Positions 4,280 to 28,451 of a stretch of 35,361 bases of DNA are shown here, piece after piece. Location of the stretch: positions 11,614 to 46,974 of the forward strand of contig WRLB01000003.1 of assembly GCA_009777815.1 (NCBI GenBank), read 5' to 3'. The translations under genes were made by a program, and so were the position numbers. Origin of the DNA: Bacteroidota bacterium. Its GTDB lineage: Bacteria; Bacteroidota; Ignavibacteria; Kapaibacteriales; UBA2268. Under the pieces are notes generated by a model, which saw only the letters and a program-made list of their open reading frames with translations, ran no database searches and was not told where the DNA came from. The first letter of the stretch is position 1, and each line of letters begins with the position of its first letter.

Positions 4280-5014
4280 ATGAAAAATGTAAAATCATTA
4301 TACTATATTCAGCGATTGCAAGCATTTTCAAAGAAAATGTATGGCAATATTATATGCAAGGGAATTTCCACGCCAAAAAGTCGGCTCGCAATGACAATAT
4401 TTATATTTGCAATATTATTTGCTACAAGTTTTATTGCGAAAAGCAATACAGATGTATATGTTTCTATTACAAAGGGAAAAGTATTAAATACTGCTACGGC
4501 ACAGTATCATAGCGATGATTTTAATGGCAGTAATACAATAGATATTACTTCAGACGGACAATACAAACTGATATTTGACAGCAATATTAAAGAAATATCT
4601 GTAGATTTTTTCCGTAATAATAACAATATTATAGAAGTAATTGGCAGTAATGTAGAGGTTATTAAAAGTTACGCTTTTGAAAGATGTTTTGCATTAGAAA
4701 TTGTAGATTTCCCTGAAATAAAACATATTGAAAGGCACGCATTTGCTAATTGTATTGCATTAAACAGTGCGACACTTACAAAAGCAAGAAGTATTGGCGA
4801 TTTAGCATTTCGAAATTGTAACAAATTATCTAGTTTAACATTAGGTCTAATGCCTCCAACTTTGGGAAGAGATATATTTGAAGGAACAAATTTATTAGAA
4901 GTAACTAATTTTAGTTTAAATGTTCCAGGTCAATCTCTTAATGCCTACCAAGATTGGATAAAGTCAAACTCACTTCCATTTAGAATGGGTTGGATAAAAG
5001 GCAGAAGTAAGTAA
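4280..5014 (+). CDS. BspA-like leucine-rich repeat surface protein
   Basis: The 244-residue protein has a hydrophobic segment (IFIFAILFATSFIA, about residues 40-53) that looks like a signal-peptide core. After it come LRR_5/BspA-type units such as VEVIKSYAFERC, IKHIERHAFANC and ARSIGDLAFRNC (residues 125-185). Such proteins are extracellular solenoids often involved in adhesion. The unusual point is the 38-residue region before the hydrophobic core. Part of it is a translated palindromic repeat (4361-4396), and an ATG at 4391 at the end of that repeat would give a normal short signal peptide. The true start is therefore uncertain. The C-terminus ends in a compact domain often seen in BspA-like proteins. 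It lacks the basic tail shared by the three surface proteins at 12594-18984. Confidence 0.72.
   Translation: MKNVKSLYYIQRLQAFSKKMYGNIICKGISTPKSRLAMTIFIFAILFATSFIAKSNTDVYVSITKGKVLNTATAQYHSDDFNGSNTIDITSDGQYKLIFDSNIKEISVDFFRNNNNIIEVIGSNVEVIKSYAFERCFALEIVDFPEIKHIERHAFANCIALNSATLTKARSIGDLAFRNCNKLSSLTLGLMPPTLGRDIFEGTNLLEVTNFSLNVPGQSLNAYQDWIKSNSLPFRMGWIKGRSK
4361..4396. repeat. Palindromic-repeat relative embedded in a leader
   Basis: GGAATTTCCACGCC and TCGGCTCGCAATGACA form a unit like the dispersed repeats that end in (A/C)ATGACA. It is translated in frame as GISTPKSRLAMT, just before the signal-peptide core of the BspA-like gene. Confidence 0.5.
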
Positions 5015-12506: not shown

Positions 12507-12538
12507 TTTGAAAATTATAAATAAAAAAGTTATTTTTG
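12507..12538 (+). promoter_or_regulatory. Bacteroidota-type promoter of the 12594 surface gene
   Basis: TTTG at 12507-12510 and TATTTTTG at 12531-12538 match the Bacteroidota -33 and -7 elements, with 20 bases between them. Transcription should begin near 12545, leaving about 50 untranslated bases before the ATG at 12594. This is the best-matching promoter in the window. Confidence 0.65.
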
Positions 12539-12593: not shown

Positions 12594-13922
12594 ATGTTTA
12601 AATCAAAACATTATCAAGGGAACGGAGCCCTTATAGAACACTCCCATTACACCTCCTCCTATGCCGATGTTTGTAGTGATATTACTACAAACAATGCAGT
12701 AGAAACTACTACACGGGGGGGGGCTACTACAAAGCGTGTAGTAGAATTACTACAAGCACCACGTCCTGCTGAACTCGTTTCAGCATCCCCTGATTTAACA
12801 AGGAGATTCCGAAATAAATTCGGAATGGCATTATGTGTAACTCTACTTATCTGTGCGTTCGCAACCGCTAATTTATCTGCACAAACAACAACTATTACTT
12901 CCATCACTGGCTCTGGAACCCTCGCTTCCGCTTACACAATTAACGGCGGACCAATTACAGGTGAGACAATTATAGGTGCTATAATACTTGCTAAGGATTT
13001 AGATATACCTAATAACGCTTTTCGTGGAAATACTAAGATAACATCAGTTACAGCCGCTGGTAATATAGGAAGTATAGGTCAGTATGCATTTTATCGGAGT
13101 ACAGCCACTTTTACTTTTAATAATGTAACAACTATAAGTGGGCTGGCATTTGGTGAGAGTTTGGGTAATATTACTTTTAACGATGTAGAAAATATGTATG
13201 ATGGTGCATTTCAGCAGAGTTCAGGTAATATTACTTTTAATGATGTAGAAACTATAGGGGGGACAGCATTTTCGCAGAGTTCAGGCGTTCTTACCTTTAA
13301 TGATGTAGGAACTATAGGTCAGGGTGCATTTCGGATGAGTTCAGGTGATATTATTTTTAATGATGTAGGAACTATAAGTTTGCAGGCATTTCAGTATAGT
13401 TCAAGTGATATTACTTTTAATGATGTAGGAACTATAGGGGGTACTGCATTTCATAGTAGTTCGGGTGATATTACCTTTAATAGCGTAGGAACTATAAGTT
13501 CGGGTGCATTTTATGAGAGTGAATCACAGATTTATGTTCCTCATCGCACATCAGACGCAAAAATAGCAGAGTTCGCAGCAGCAGGTTATACAAAAACTGT
13601 ATTAAAATTGCCACCACCGCTTTACACTTTAACAATAACCACAGCAGGCAACGGCATCGCAAAAGTAGGCGGCATACCTTATGAAACGCAACGAACATTC
13701 GAAGAAGATGATAAAGTTGTGGTAGAATTTTTACCTGATGCAAATTACCGAATAAAAAGCGTAACAGTAAATGGCATTCCCGCTTCAAGGAGCAAAATCT
13801 ATACAATAAATAGTATAGAGGAAAACTACAATATATCAGTGGAATTTGAAGAAAAACCGCCTACCCGCATCAAAAAAGTAGTAGTAAAAAAAGGCAGGTT
13901 AAGAATTAAGCCAATACCATAA
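12594..13922 (+). CDS. BspA-like surface protein with G-tract leader (in frame)
   Basis: A 442-residue predicted surface protein. The ATG at 12594 is chosen over an upstream TTG at 12552 because of promoter spacing and similarity to the leader at 15500. Residues 1-79 are an unusual leader containing a nine-G run (12715-12723) and a translated palindromic repeat. A hydrophobic signal core follows (ALCVTLLICAFATA), ending before AQTTT. Residues about 105-315 are 20-residue solenoid repeats of the form xITFNDVxTIxxxAFxxSSG, a BspA/LRR_5 type. A B-repeat-like domain (about 330-415; AGNGIAKVGG, FLPDANYRIKSVTVNG) precedes a basic C-terminal tail (RIKKVVVKKGRLRIKPIP). An adhesin or cell-surface role is inferred. 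An ATG at 12826 inside the repeat could be an alternative start. Confidence 0.75.
   Translation: MFKSKHYQGNGALIEHSHYTSSYADVCSDITTNNAVETTTRGGATTKRVVELLQAPRPAELVSASPDLTRRFRNKFGMALCVTLLICAFATANLSAQTTTITSITGSGTLASAYTINGGPITGETIIGAIILAKDLDIPNNAFRGNTKITSVTAAGNIGSIGQYAFYRSTATFTFNNVTTISGLAFGESLGNITFNDVENMYDGAFQQSSGNITFNDVETIGGTAFSQSSGVLTFNDVGTIGQGAFRMSSGDIIFNDVGTISLQAFQYSSSDITFNDVGTIGGTAFHSSSGDITFNSVGTISSGAFYESESQIYVPHRTSDAKIAEFAAAGYTKTVLKLPPPLYTLTITTAGNGIAKVGGIPYETQRTFEEDDKVVVEFLPDANYRIKSVTVNGIPASRSKIYTINSIEENYNISVEFEEKPPTRIKKVVVKKGRLRIKPIP
12715..12723 (+). repeat. Nine-G homopolymer in the leader
   Basis: Nine consecutive G residues lie in a context shared with 15368-15376 (GAAACTACTACAC before the run, sense strand). 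In this gene the frame stays open through the run. Such tracts are typical sites of slipped-strand length change. Confidence 0.85.
12768..12830. repeat. Composite palindromic repeat inside the coding leader
   Basis: Two palindromic halves, CTGAACTCGTTTCAG and TTCCGAAATAAATTCGGAA, lie in tandem and are translated in frame as PAELVSAS and RRFRNKFGMA. The element sits directly before the signal-peptide core and ends in an ATG at 12826. Confidence 0.75.
13163..13520 (+). repeat. 60-bp tandem coding repeats (20-residue solenoid units)
   Basis: About six units of 60 bases encode ITFNDV(G/E)TI plus a variable stretch, AF, and xxSSGD. The units differ mostly at two short variable positions, which suggests expansion by duplication with later divergence. 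The period is a multiple of three, so copy changes would alter length but not frame. Confidence 0.85.
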
Positions 13923-14025
13923 TATTGATTGAAAAAAACTGAACTCGTTTCAGACACTATAACACGAGGGCTTGCCCCCGTGTTAAAATGTCTGAAACGA
14001 GTTCAGTTTTTTTCAATCAATATTA
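13920..14025. terminator. Large inverted repeat shared by two convergent surface genes
   Basis: Two arms of about 50 bases are near-perfect inverted copies, meeting at AACACGAGGGCTTGCCCCCGTG. The outer ends include both stop codons (TAA, 13920-13922 on + and 14023-14025 on -), followed in each direction by TATTGATTG and an A- or T-rich run. The structure should form a very stable hairpin in either transcript and act as a bidirectional terminator. The inner parts are made of the dispersed palindrome TGAACTCGTTTCAGA and the CGGGGG/CCCCCG element. Confidence 0.8.
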
Positions 14026-15336
14026 CGGCTGTGGTGTTATTATTAGCCGTCCTTTTTTAACGTTTATTTTCTTGATGCGTGTTATTTTTCGGACTTCAAA
14101 AACCGCTGTTAATTCTGTGTCTTCCACCAAATTAAAAGTAAATTCCGCACTGCTGGATACTTCAACGCCGCCTTGCATCCAATGTGAAAACTTATACCCT
14201 TCTTCAGGAGTTGCCGTTATTGTATGGCTTGAGCCACAAGCAAAAGTGCCACCACCACTCACTGTTCCCATAGTTGCATCATCGCTCGCAACCGTCAAAG
14301 TAAATGTTTGTTGGTTTTCCACTGCACCGAAGGTTACATTTCCTGTGTTTGAGCGTGAATTTCCTGCTTGGTCTTTGGCAAGATGCTGCAACACAAAAGC
14401 AGCCGTAACTCCTGTGGCGGTTTGTATTGTATTCGTCAATGCCGTTGTGGTTATACATAGCGGCTCAAATTTGTTGTTTATTGGTGTTGGAGGCGCATCC
14501 CCAAATACTGTAAGAAGCGTATTATCACCGCTTTGCACTAAATTAGTTCCCACAACATTAGTAGCGTTAAATTGGTTTGTCGCAGTCGCAGTTCCGCCAA
14601 CTGTATTACCAACAAATATACAATTATATGCTGCAAACATTGTGTTGATGGAAACCGCTACCGAACCACCCTCCGCATTCTGCACCCCCGCATTCTGCAT
14701 ATCCGCATCGTTTTCAATGAATGTGCAATGATAGAAGTATGCACGACCATTTGGTCCAACAAACACCGCTCCGCCGTCTCCAGCATTGGCTTTATTTTTA
14801 TAAAAAGTGGTGTTAATTGCTGTAAAAAAACTACCAGATCCAACACTCACCGCTCCGCCATATGAGAAGCCAAAAGTTGGAACAGCTTCATTGTTAGAAA
14901 AAGTGGTATTAATTGCGACAAAACTAGCACCACCACCAATTGTCACCGCTGATCCATACATTGCTGTTTTTGAATTTTGGAAAACCAAACCATCTCCATT
15001 TACAGTAAGTTTGCTATTGCTACCATCAACATTAAACACTCGGGCATATGTGCCAGCAGTAGTGTTATTATTCGTAATAGTTACTGTGCCTTTAACTTGG
15101 ATTGTTAAATCGAGATTGCTAATAATGATATGGTTTCCTGTAAGCGTGATAGCAGAAACGGTAGTGGCATCGATTGTAATAGTTTGTGGGATAGCGCCAT
15201 TATCCGAAGCGGAAATCGCTTCATCAACTGCCCATCGCAGAGTTCCATATATTGGCGTTGTATCATCATCTTGGTTGCCACTTGTTACGGAAATTGGCTG
15301 TGCGTTAGCGACAAAAGATATAAAAAGGAAAGCCAA
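14023..15336 (-). CDS. Beta-helix surface protein (main frame; leader out of frame)
   Basis: The open frame encodes a secreted beta-helix protein. Visible from the TTG at 15336 are a hydrophobic signal core (AFLFISFVANA, then QPIS) and a right-handed beta-helix region (about residues 60-300) with repeats such as AVxIGGGASFVAINTTFSNN. A B-repeat-like domain follows (about 345-415; GTVSGGGTFACGSSHTITATPEEGYKFSHW). The protein ends in the basic tail RIKKINVKKGRLIITPQP. The frame is open further upstream, giving the more complete signal peptide LLHAAVTLFLAFLFISFVANAQ, but has no ATG. A homologous leader starts with ATG at 15500 in another frame and hits a stop after the nine-G run. One extra G would join them. 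The gene is therefore probably phase-off here, or starts weakly at TTG. Confidence 0.72.
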   Translation of the reverse strand: MAFLFISFVANAQPISVTSGNQDDDTTPIYGTLRWAVDEAISASDNGAIPQTITIDATTVSAITLTGNHIIISNLDLTIQVKGTVTITNNNTTAGTYARVFNVDGSNSKLTVNGDGLVFQNSKTAMYGSAVTIGGGASFVAINTTFSNNEAVPTFGFSYGGAVSVGSGSFFTAINTTFYKNKANAGDGGAVFVGPNGRAYFYHCTFIENDADMQNAGVQNAEGGSVAVSINTMFAAYNCIFVGNTVGGTATATNQFNATNVVGTNLVQSGDNTLLTVFGDAPPTPINNKFEPLCITTTALTNTIQTATGVTAAFVLQHLAKDQAGNSRSNTGNVTFGAVENQQTFTLTVASDDATMGTVSGGGTFACGSSHTITATPEEGYKFSHWMQGGVEVSSSAEFTFNLVEDTELTAVFEVRKITRIKKINVKKGRLIITPQP

Positions 15337-15500
15337 AAAGAGGGTTACAGCGGCGTGTAGTAGGAATCCCCCCCCCGTGTAGTAGTTTCCACTACATTGC
15401 TTGTGGTAATAGCACTACAAACGCTATTGGTGGCAGAGGAGATATTATTGATGTTTTCTACAAGGGTTCTGTTCCCTTGATTAATTTTTACATCTTGCAT
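15337..15500 (-). other. Out-of-frame leader of the beta-helix gene
   Basis: From the ATG at 15500 the frame encodes a leader similar to residues 1-41 of the 12594 protein: QGNRTLVE, then SVCSAITTSNVVETTTRGG. It stops about 8 codons after the nine-G run. The similarity covers DNA and protein, including an AAGGG/CCCTT hairpin and GTAGT/ACTAC pairs. A -7 box (caaaata type, 15557-15564, - strand) and a possible -33 TTTG (15587-15590) lie upstream, as in the paralogue. Confidence 0.7.
15368..15376 (-). repeat. Nine-G homopolymer (C run on + strand)
   Basis: Nine C residues on the + strand are nine G on the coding strand. Length is the same as in the tract at 12715-12723, but here it puts the leader and the signal peptide in different frames. 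Ten (or seven) G would join them. Confidence 0.85.
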
Positions 15501-15625
15501 TTTAAAAATCCTATATATTGTAAAAAATTTACGTAGTTAATAATTCATAAGAAATACAAAAATAACTTTTTTTAATGAAATAAAAACAAAAATTTTTTTA
15601 TAAAAAATATTTTTATCAATCTGTC

Positions 15626-17883: not shown

Positions 17884-18984
17884 TTACTCTTGTGGCTTAA
17901 TTATTAGTCGCCCTTTCTTTATATTTACTTTGTTGATGTGAGTTGTATTACGGGGTATTATTTCTAATGTTCCTTGATAACCGCCTATGGAATAAAACTC
18001 TTGCATCTTTTCCTCTGTCATTTTGCGTGAAACATAAATCTTTGATGAACTCCCATTAAATGCATCCGCTTCTATAGTTTCTACGCTATTAAATGTAATA
18101 TCACCCGAACTCCCATTAAATGCCCCCGTTTGTATAGTTTCTACATCATTAAAAGTAATAGCACCCGAACTATTCTCAAATGCCCCCGTTTGTATAGTTT
18201 CTACATTATTAATAGTAATAGCACCCGAACTATTCTCAAATGCCCCCGTTCGTATAGTTCCTATATTATTAATAGTAATAGTACCCGAAGTCCCATTTCT
18301 TCCGGATATACTTATTACATTATTAATAGTAATATCACCTGAAGCATTCTCAAATACAGCCGCAGGTATATAATCTAAATTATTAAAGGTAATATTACCT
18401 GAACTATTCTCAAATGCGAACGATTCTATTAAATATACATCCTTAAAAGTAATATTACATACAGTCCCAGCAAATGCATAATTTCTTATATAAGTTATAT
18501 TACCAGCGGCTGTCACTGATGTTATACTAATATTATTCCTAAAAGCAGCATAAGGCAAAGGAACAGGAGGAACATCAATAGGTATATCTAATATGTCAGC
18601 AATTATTATCTCGCCTGAAATTGACGCTCCTGTCTCCGGTCCGCCGTTAATTAGGCAAGAACCAGCGGTGGTTCCATTTTGAGTGAAGGAAGTTATAATT
18701 GTTTCTGCATTAGCGTAAAAAAGCGGCGAAAAGCAAAAAATTAGGGCAAATAGCAAAAATTTGAGGCATTTCGCGTTAAATTTACGCGTTTCGCGTTGAT
18801 TTGAGGCGTTCCGCGTTGATTTGACGCGTTCCGCGTTGATTTGACGCGTTTCGCGTTGATTTGACGCGTTTCGCGTTAATTTGACGCGTTTCGCGTTAAT
18901 TTGACGCGTTTCGCGTAAAAACGTTACTAATTGAGAAATTTTCATTAGTCCCGTAAAATCTAATCTGTAATTTAAATACATCAT
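17884..18984 (-). CDS. BspA-like surface protein with 20-bp repeat leader
   Basis: A 366-residue predicted surface protein, paralogous to the 12594 gene. Shared text includes LINGGPETGASI versus TINGGPITGETI and ITSVTAAGNI. The N-terminal 73 residues are mostly encoded by a 20-base tandem repeat and read as basic 20-residue units (RETRQINAKRVKLTRNASNQ). They precede a hydrophobic core (FLLFALIFCFSPLFYANA). Solenoid repeats (about 175-320; AITINNVETIQTGAFENSSG) follow, then a short linker and the basic tail HINKVNIKKGRLIIKPQE. There is no B-repeat domain. Starts at 18984, 18981 or 18945 are all possible; the last would begin MKISQLVTFL. A TATTTTTG box on the - strand (19026-19033) lies upstream. 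Confidence 0.75.
   Translation of the reverse strand: MMYLNYRLDFTGLMKISQLVTFLRETRQINAKRVKLTRNASNQRETRQINAERVKSTRNASNQRETRKFNAKCLKFLLFALIFCFSPLFYANAETIITSFTQNGTTAGSCLINGGPETGASISGEIIIADILDIPIDVPPVPLPYAAFRNNISITSVTAAGNITYIRNYAFAGTVCNITFKDVYLIESFAFENSSGNITFNNLDYIPAAVFENASGDITINNVISISGRNGTSGTITINNIGTIRTGAFENSSGAITINNVETIQTGAFENSSGAITFNDVETIQTGAFNGSSGDITFNSVETIEADAFNGSSSKIYVSRKMTEEKMQEFYSIGGYQGTLEIIPRNTTHINKVNIKKGRLIIKPQE
18761..18916 (-). repeat. 20-bp tandem repeat in a surface-protein leader
   Basis: Nearly eight units of 20 bases, consensus TTGACGCGTTTCGCGTTGAT on the + strand. The five units nearest the start codon are almost identical, and those farther in are more diverged. Each unit contains ACGCG-TTT-CGCGT, a short inverted repeat. 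The repeat is open in the coding frame. Because 20 is not a multiple of three, gain or loss of one unit shifts the frame of the signal peptide. Confidence 0.9.
18916..18931 (+). repeat. 16-base direct repeat, copy 2
   Basis: Second copy of TAAAAACGTTACTAAT, directly next to the 20-bp tandem array and within the coding leader of the surface gene. The first copy is at 17691-17706. Confidence 0.6.
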
Positions 18985-27392: not shown

Positions 27393-28451
27393 TCATACTA
27401 AAACATTGCCTAATTTTAAAAATGTTTTATGGCAATTTGTACAGCAATATCTTTTATACTCATTTCTTGATGCAAACATTACGCCGCAAACTTCACAAGT
27501 TCTAATTTTGCGAGGTCTTGCCATATTTCCAGATTTTATACTACACTCTTTACTACAATACTTTCTTCTTGTTCCCTGTTCAGAAATAAATACTTTACCG
27601 CAGTATTCACATATTATATGTATTTTATTTGGAATAAGTTTTAAACTAGTGTGATATTCTTGTCCACACTTTATGCAACAAAACCTTTTTCTATTTTTAT
27701 GTGTTTCAAATTCTTTACCGCAATTGTCACAAATTTTAATAGTATTTTTGCCTATATTATGAATATGAATATAGCAACATTCGTGGCTACAATATTTTTT
27801 ATTTACTATACTAACTTTAAATTCTTTGCCACAATGCTTACAAAATCTATTGGGATATATTTTTTTATAAACAATTGTTGAACACTTTTTACTGCAATAT
27901 TTTTTCTTTCTAATTGTTTCAAACTCTTTACCACAAACATTACATTTTTTTACAATAATTGGTTTATTCTTACCGTAACATTGTTCGCTGCAATATTTTT
28001 TCTTTCTAATTGTTTCAAACTCTTTGCCACAAATCTTACATACTAAAATTATAGGTTTTAAAGTAGCTTTTCTTTTCATATAATCAGCACTTAGTATTTT
28101 AATTTGTGTATAAGCACATTCTTTACTACAATATTTTTTCTTTCTATTTGTCTCAAACTCTTTGCCGCAAATCTTACATATTCGTATAGCATTTGGTTTT
28201 TTATTATGTTTGCAACATTTTGGGTTGCAATATTTTTTATTTCTAATTGTTGTCTCAAACTCTTTGCCACAACACTCACATACTTTAATTATAGGTTTTA
28301 TAGCAGTTTTTCTTTTTAATACATAACTGGCATTTAGCAGTTTAATTTGTGTATAAGTACATTCTTTACTGCAATATTTTTTATTTCTAATTGTTTCAAA
28401 CTCTTTACCGCAAATCTTACATACTAATTTTTGTTTTATTTTTTCCTTCAT
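27393..28451 (-). CDS. Protein of nine tandem CxxC...CxxxC zinc-binding units
   Basis: A 352-residue protein made almost entirely of nine repeats of one small zinc-binding unit, consensus CKICGKEFETxRxKKYCSKEC, spaced 32-46 residues apart. Each unit has four cysteines (CxxC and CxxxC), so nine zinc ions are possible. Units 1-6 are close copies; units 7-9 are more diverged but keep all four cysteines. The linkers are rich in Lys and Ile and the whole protein is very basic. There is no signal peptide. Single copies of this unit are familiar at the ends of HNH nucleases and phage proteins, where they help bind nucleic acid. A protein of only these units is not one I recognise. DNA or RNA binding is inferred from charge and motif. 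Confidence 0.78.
   Translation of the reverse strand: MKEKIKQKLVCKICGKEFETIRNKKYCSKECTYTQIKLLNASYVLKRKTAIKPIIKVCECCGKEFETTIRNKKYCNPKCCKHNKKPNAIRICKICGKEFETNRKKKYCSKECAYTQIKILSADYMKRKATLKPIILVCKICGKEFETIRKKKYCSEQCYGKNKPIIVKKCNVCGKEFETIRKKKYCSKKCSTIVYKKIYPNRFCKHCGKEFKVSIVNKKYCSHECCYIHIHNIGKNTIKICDNCGKEFETHKNRKRFCCIKCGQEYHTSLKLIPNKIHIICEYCGKVFISEQGTRRKYCSKECSIKSGNMARPRKIRTCEVCGVMFASRNEYKRYCCTNCHKTFLKLGNVLV

Follow-up and report, generated by a model that had tools for sequence, protein, structure and literature searches.

Genes A and B, two convergent surface-protein genes in the 35,361-nucleotide stretch of DNA analyzed here (the window), very probably belong to a genome-wide family of surface or secreted proteins that, judging from their sequences, would undergo Opa-like phase variation by slipped-strand mispairing. 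Each member of the family begins with a shared leader that carries a run of Gs, and since the length of the run sets the reading frame, the tract would switch each protein on or off.

Equal G tracts, opposite frames

The coordinates of the two genes are given in Table 1. Their nine-G tracts are the sole runs of at least eight Gs in the window, a count that was matched by 0 of 100 dinucleotide-preserving shuffles. An earlier note on this DNA had described two genes with homologous leaders, each carrying nine Gs after GAAACTACTACAC; both runs and both leader ATGs were found, and each leader is about 40 codons long. By frame arithmetic, nine Gs keep gene A in an open frame, as that note had claimed, here of 442 amino acids, and put gene B in a frame that stops at 51 amino acids, seven codons 3′ of the tract. 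One base on, the gene B frame runs for 492 amino acids, through the signal peptide. The two equal tracts thus give opposite states because the bases 3′ of the tract differ between the genes and, with them, the required tract length modulo 3; here too the earlier reading stands. Downstream, the genes share homologous 3′ ends and a 3′ flank, TATTGATTGAAAAAAACTGAACTCG, which together make up a tail-to-tail inverted repeat. A phage origin was considered for gene A, and PHROGs gave no match to it. Elsewhere in the window, an LRR_5 surface gene at 4280-5014 (+) has its own start and is without the G-tract leader.

Table 1. Features of genes A and B in the window
Feature	Position	Strand	Basis
TATTTTTG promoter-like element, gene A	12531..12538	+	Alignment of upstream regions
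Shared leader, gene A (MFKSKHYQGNGALIEHSHYTSSYADVCSDITTNNAVETTT)	12594..12714	+	Leader comparison across genomic copies
G9 tract, gene A, in frame (ON) as assembled	12715..12723	+	Frame arithmetic
Post-tract hairpin element CTACTACAAAGCGTGTAGTAG	12724..12760	+	Stem pairing across copies
Signal-peptide hydrophobic region, gene A (MALCVTLLICAFATANLSAQ)	12825..12882	+	Direct reading
Gene A, BspA-type LRR surface protein, C-terminal tail KKVVVKKGRLRIKPIP	12594..13922	+	Pfam LRR_5, 1.9e-14; tail profile
TATTTTTG promoter-like element, gene B	15557..15564	-	Upstream alignment
Shared leader, gene B (MQDVKINQGNRTLVENINNISSATNSVCSAITTSNVVETTT)	15377..15500	-	Leader comparison
G9 tract, gene B, out of frame (OFF) as assembled	15368..15376	-	Frame arithmetic
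Gene B body: signal peptide LLHAAVTLFLAFLFISFVANAQ, a repetitive stretch that the earlier note read as beta-helix, InlB B-repeat, tail RIKKINVKKGRLIITPQP	14023..15366	-	Pfam Flg_new_2, 1e-13
Tail-to-tail inverted repeat, terminator-like	13863..14082	.	Homology of the gene A and gene B 3′ ends and flanks

A leader family across the genome

The genome is represented by one draft of 1.94 Mb in 121 contigs, 73% complete. The leader pattern GAAACTACTACACGGGGGG occurs at 25 places in it, compared to 0 for a reversed control, and reading all G runs in the genome brought the set to 28 leader or leader-remnant loci. A BLAST-type search of this genome with the whole leader recovered the same set and found no full-length copy without a tract; G runs of eight or more outside the leader loci are few, among them unrelated G8-G9 runs on C2, C69, and C79. 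The earlier note had treated the convergent pair as the unit. With the same leader and tract at about 28 places, genes A and B are ruled out as a special pair, and the unit is instead a genome-wide family.

The leader is coding. In 21 of 22 copies, the frame leading into the tract (...ITTSNVVETTT) is open, with the other two frames closed in 22/22 and 21/22; length differences among leaders are in-frame changes, and single changes are somewhat more often synonymous than expected (0.295 versus 0.214). Alignment of the upstream regions revealed TTATTTTTGTA, conserved 5′ of most family members; within it lies TATTTTTG, which we take to fit the Bacteroidota -7 promoter element, TANNTTTG. In several genes, a REP-like repeat, read as AELVSASPDLTRRFRNKFGMT, is inserted in frame between the tract and the signal peptide (at 12760-12830 and at many other loci) and brings an ATG with it.

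Beyond the leader, most mature parts match the Pfam families LRR_5 (BspA-type LRR), Flg_new_2 (divergent InlB B-repeat), or beta-helix/Chlam_PMP. By tail profile, most products end in ...KKINVKKGRLIITPQP or ...RIKKINVKKGRLIITPQP, a tail common across this genome. It was absent from 35 relatives, two of which (G002 and G021) were matched by internal InlB-like parts only. The exceptions are L069 (WG repeats), L070+, and L075, 3 of the 17 copies used for the frame test below, whose downstream ORFs are without the shared tail; two of these have no Pfam match. Eight products were scanned against NCBIfam at E 0.01, with no match to a type IX secretion system (T9SS) C-terminal sorting domain, and the tail (RIKKINVKKGRLIITPQP) is short. 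The region before the signal peptide is unusually long, and export of the products to the surface is a prediction from their sequences.

The tract sets the frame and diverges rapidly

In the 23 leader-bearing copies, the leader ORF contains a simple repeat of the hypermutable type, a tract of 7 (two copies), 8 (three), 9 (ten), 10 (four), 11 (one), 12 (two), or 13 (one) Gs. For the frame test, we used the 17 copies in which the leader is intact and is followed by an ORF of 205 amino acids or more. In all 17, one frame of three leads to 247 to 1,110 amino acids and the other two to 43 to 91. Five of the 17 are in frame (ON) and 12 are out of frame (OFF), close to the one third that random lengths would give, and the downstream ORFs of the OFF copies are intact, at 246 to 1,068 amino acids. 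Depending on the copy, the required tract length modulo 3 is 0, 1, or 2. Where two leaders are at least 97% identical in DNA, tract length differs in every pair (7/7); for instance, the near-identical leaders of L064, L065, and L069 carry 9, 13, and 7 Gs, respectively. Thus, as compared between paralogues, the sequences indicate that the tract evolves faster than what flanks it.

One can ask whether errors of sequencing or assembly produced the tract lengths seen in the draft, with every true sequence in frame, or fixed. Some platforms are prone to errors in poly-G, and for at least 12 of the approximately 28 tracts, a contig end is no more than 160 bases away. The ends of contigs C34, C64, and C119 look chimeric, and at the end of C51 (L073), the Illumina adapter AGATCGGAAGAGCAC was assembled shortly 3′ of the tract; individual lengths may therefore be wrong. 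The contig-end position of the tracts fits length mixtures or shared repeats, but it weakens single length calls. However, no single length would fit all copies, since the required length modulo 3 varies while the leaders are alike; error does not account for a G tract kept in every copy; the in-frame share is close to the chance fraction; and both window tracts are mid-contig. We consider error quite unlikely as the explanation.

The intact OFF copies also bear on a second alternative, in which tract length does not vary and the OFF copies would be either silent cassettes for recombination or recent pseudogenes. That most of the tested copies are OFF agrees with it, and the near-identical leaders and 3′ ends of many copies would suit gene conversion. 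Nevertheless, the OFF copies have their own promoter-like element and start codon along with their long ORFs, whereas silent cassettes need neither promoter nor start and pseudogenes would gather other lesions. This alternative is highly improbable.

In L058 and L074, there is no ATG, GTG, or TTG between the tract and the mature protein; the sole start in that interval is an ATG inside the hydrophobic segment in L064 and a TTG inside the hydrophobic segment in gene B. These four genes, having no suitable start after the tract, therefore depend on the leader start. Gene A and the other carriers of the REP-like insert have an ATG immediately 5′ of the hydrophobic segment, and their expression could thus be partly independent of the tract.

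Two hairpins flank the tract, both built from TGTAGTAG/CTACTACA stems, with pairing in 96% of cells versus at most 68% when slid. We looked for covariation in these stems and found none; a conserved RNA structure is therefore unproven, clear as the stems are, and a role of the hairpins in slippage is a suggestion only. The hairpins would also be compatible with slippage during transcription or translation of the G run, giving partial, nonswitching expression of every gene. Long homopolymers can slip in RNA polymerase, and ribosomal frameshifting for the gonococcal P.II (Opa) genes in E. coli is mentioned, as a citation, in PMC3960869. The fast divergence in tract length from copy to copy is not something that such slippage would predict. 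It might operate alongside phase variation, but as the explanation it is very unlikely.

Slipped-strand ON/OFF switching, as the earlier note had proposed for the two window genes, is at the level of sequence strongly supported by the approximately 28 tract-bearing copies, the differences within all near-identical pairs, the in-frame share, and the several genes with no other usable start. In this reading, each gene has its own promoter-like element, a start in the shared leader, and 7 to 13 Gs, followed by a signal peptide and then by a repeat domain that varies among the genes (LRR, InlB B-repeat, or beta-helix). Gs would be gained or lost through slipped-strand mispairing, presumably occurring within the population; one length in three would place leader and signal peptide in a single frame, and the protein would be made, while the other two would end translation within about 43 to 91 codons. 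ON and OFF copies coexist in the genome under one shared leader. With a tract and spacer of its own at each locus, the loci should therefore switch independently, and a clonal population would display many combinations of proteins. The benefit might be adhesion, antigenic variation, or escape from phage.

Comparison with known switches

The earlier note had called a variable tract within a shared leader an unfamiliar arrangement. That does not hold, given the opa genes of Neisseria, in which CTCTT repeats in the region encoding the leader peptide set the frame, with up to 11 loci in gonococci and independent, random ON/OFF states (PMC3960869). As with opa, we see a multigene surface family with a variable, frame-setting tract in the leader region of each locus. 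Unlike opa, the tract here is mononucleotide, lies between hairpins and ahead of the signal peptide, and is found at about 28 loci. The mature folds are mixed (LRR, InlB B-repeat, and beta-helix) and the phylum is Bacteroidota, in contrast to the one beta-barrel of opa; homology to that outer-membrane barrel was not found in the products, which match LRR_5, Flg_new_2, and beta-helix families. The leader family would work like opa and is not opa.

A second precedent is “Candidatus Mycoplasma girerdii,” which has many BspA-like LRR genes, several of them with repeat-length variants predicted to switch them; the repeats are mainly dinucleotide, and the variants were counted in metagenome reads (PMC5476646). 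Both cases involve BspA-like LRR genes with a putative repeat switch in an uncultured organism. They differ in that the leader with its G tract is shared here, and in that our lengths come from one assembly. With these two precedents, the mechanism is therefore known.

In Campylobacter and Helicobacter, phase-variable poly-G tracts are scattered in unrelated genes, unlike the arrangement here, in which many genes receive their tract with a single leader. The usual switch known in Bacteroidota is DNA inversion. For Campylobacter and Helicobacter, frame switching by poly-G or homopolymer tracts within coding sequence is described in PMC6321876 and PMC2823697. No published description of the present leader was found in the literature searched, and as far as that literature shows, a G-tract leader common to a surface family of mixed folds in Bacteroidota is new. 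A family of such size could yield very many surface combinations and would point to strong pressure from immunity, a host, or phage on this uncultured organism.

Distribution among relatives and a related leader

In a RuvB tree, this genome falls beside the goat-omasum Bacteroidetes genome RGIG2709. The exact leader was absent from 59 related genomes, with one chance match (G008, C20:16014); the G008 genome has a leader family of its own that sits elsewhere. The exact gapped leader pattern retrieved nothing from 84,980 species genomes or from viral contigs, a search from which entries for this genome or its closest neighbors may be missing. No second genome of the species was found among the related genomes or in the species-wide collection.

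Another genus of the same family, g9 (genomes G069 and G008), has its own multicopy leader ORF with a G tract (L214-L222 and L248-L260). G069, a single 2.66-Mb contig, contains about 14 leader copies, with 6 to 12 Gs where the tract was read and the tract lost in two copies (L251 and L252); G008 contains at least 7 copies, with 4 to 12 Gs. The g9 leader mostly lies 170 to 250 nt 5′ of genes for secreted proteins that have their own ATG, and its posttract frame (TEHCYNSIDSVRIPFHHCSRCRGPPDV) is coding, as judged by an excess of synonymous changes (0.377 versus 0.225). Like the leader of our genome, it is a multicopy ORF with YACAC-Gn ahead of secreted proteins; unlike it, the g9 leader is mostly a separate upstream ORF and has lost its tract in some copies. 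The shared sequence context, YACAC-Gn-TACANAGC, suggests, and does not prove, a common origin of the two.

The g9 arrangement speaks for reading the leader as a regulatory leader peptide, an attenuator whose frame would act through coupling or Rho-type polarity and not through fusion: a comparable leader stands apart from genes with their own start, has 4 to 12 Gs in the copies that retain the tract, and shows the synonymous excess just noted. In our genome, however, the leader continues straight into the signal peptide, and for some of the genes it provides the sole start codon, so an attenuator seems unlikely there. For this bacterial family, one can tentatively envision a portable “switch leader,” made up of a promoter-like element, a start, and a G tract between hairpins, that may have been copied before many different surface genes; in one genus it would be fused to the signal peptide, and in another it would act as an upstream leader ORF. 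If true, it would be a lineage-wide device making almost any surface gene phase variable.

A possible second frame switch and a further repeat gene

One further gene in the window, 17884-18984, encodes an LRR protein with the same type of tail and has about eight tandem 20-base units at 18758-18916 (-), between its start and the signal peptide. As 20 is not a multiple of 3, gain or loss of a unit would shift the frame, and the array may be a second frame switch. Arrays of the 20-base unit on contigs C42, C1, C17, and C37 look intergenic. The unit also occurs in leaders on C96, C56, and C88, the C56 copy being out of frame as assembled. Separately, an ORF at 27393-28451 (-) consists of tandem CxxCGKEFET zinc-ribbon-like repeats with a 243-base period.
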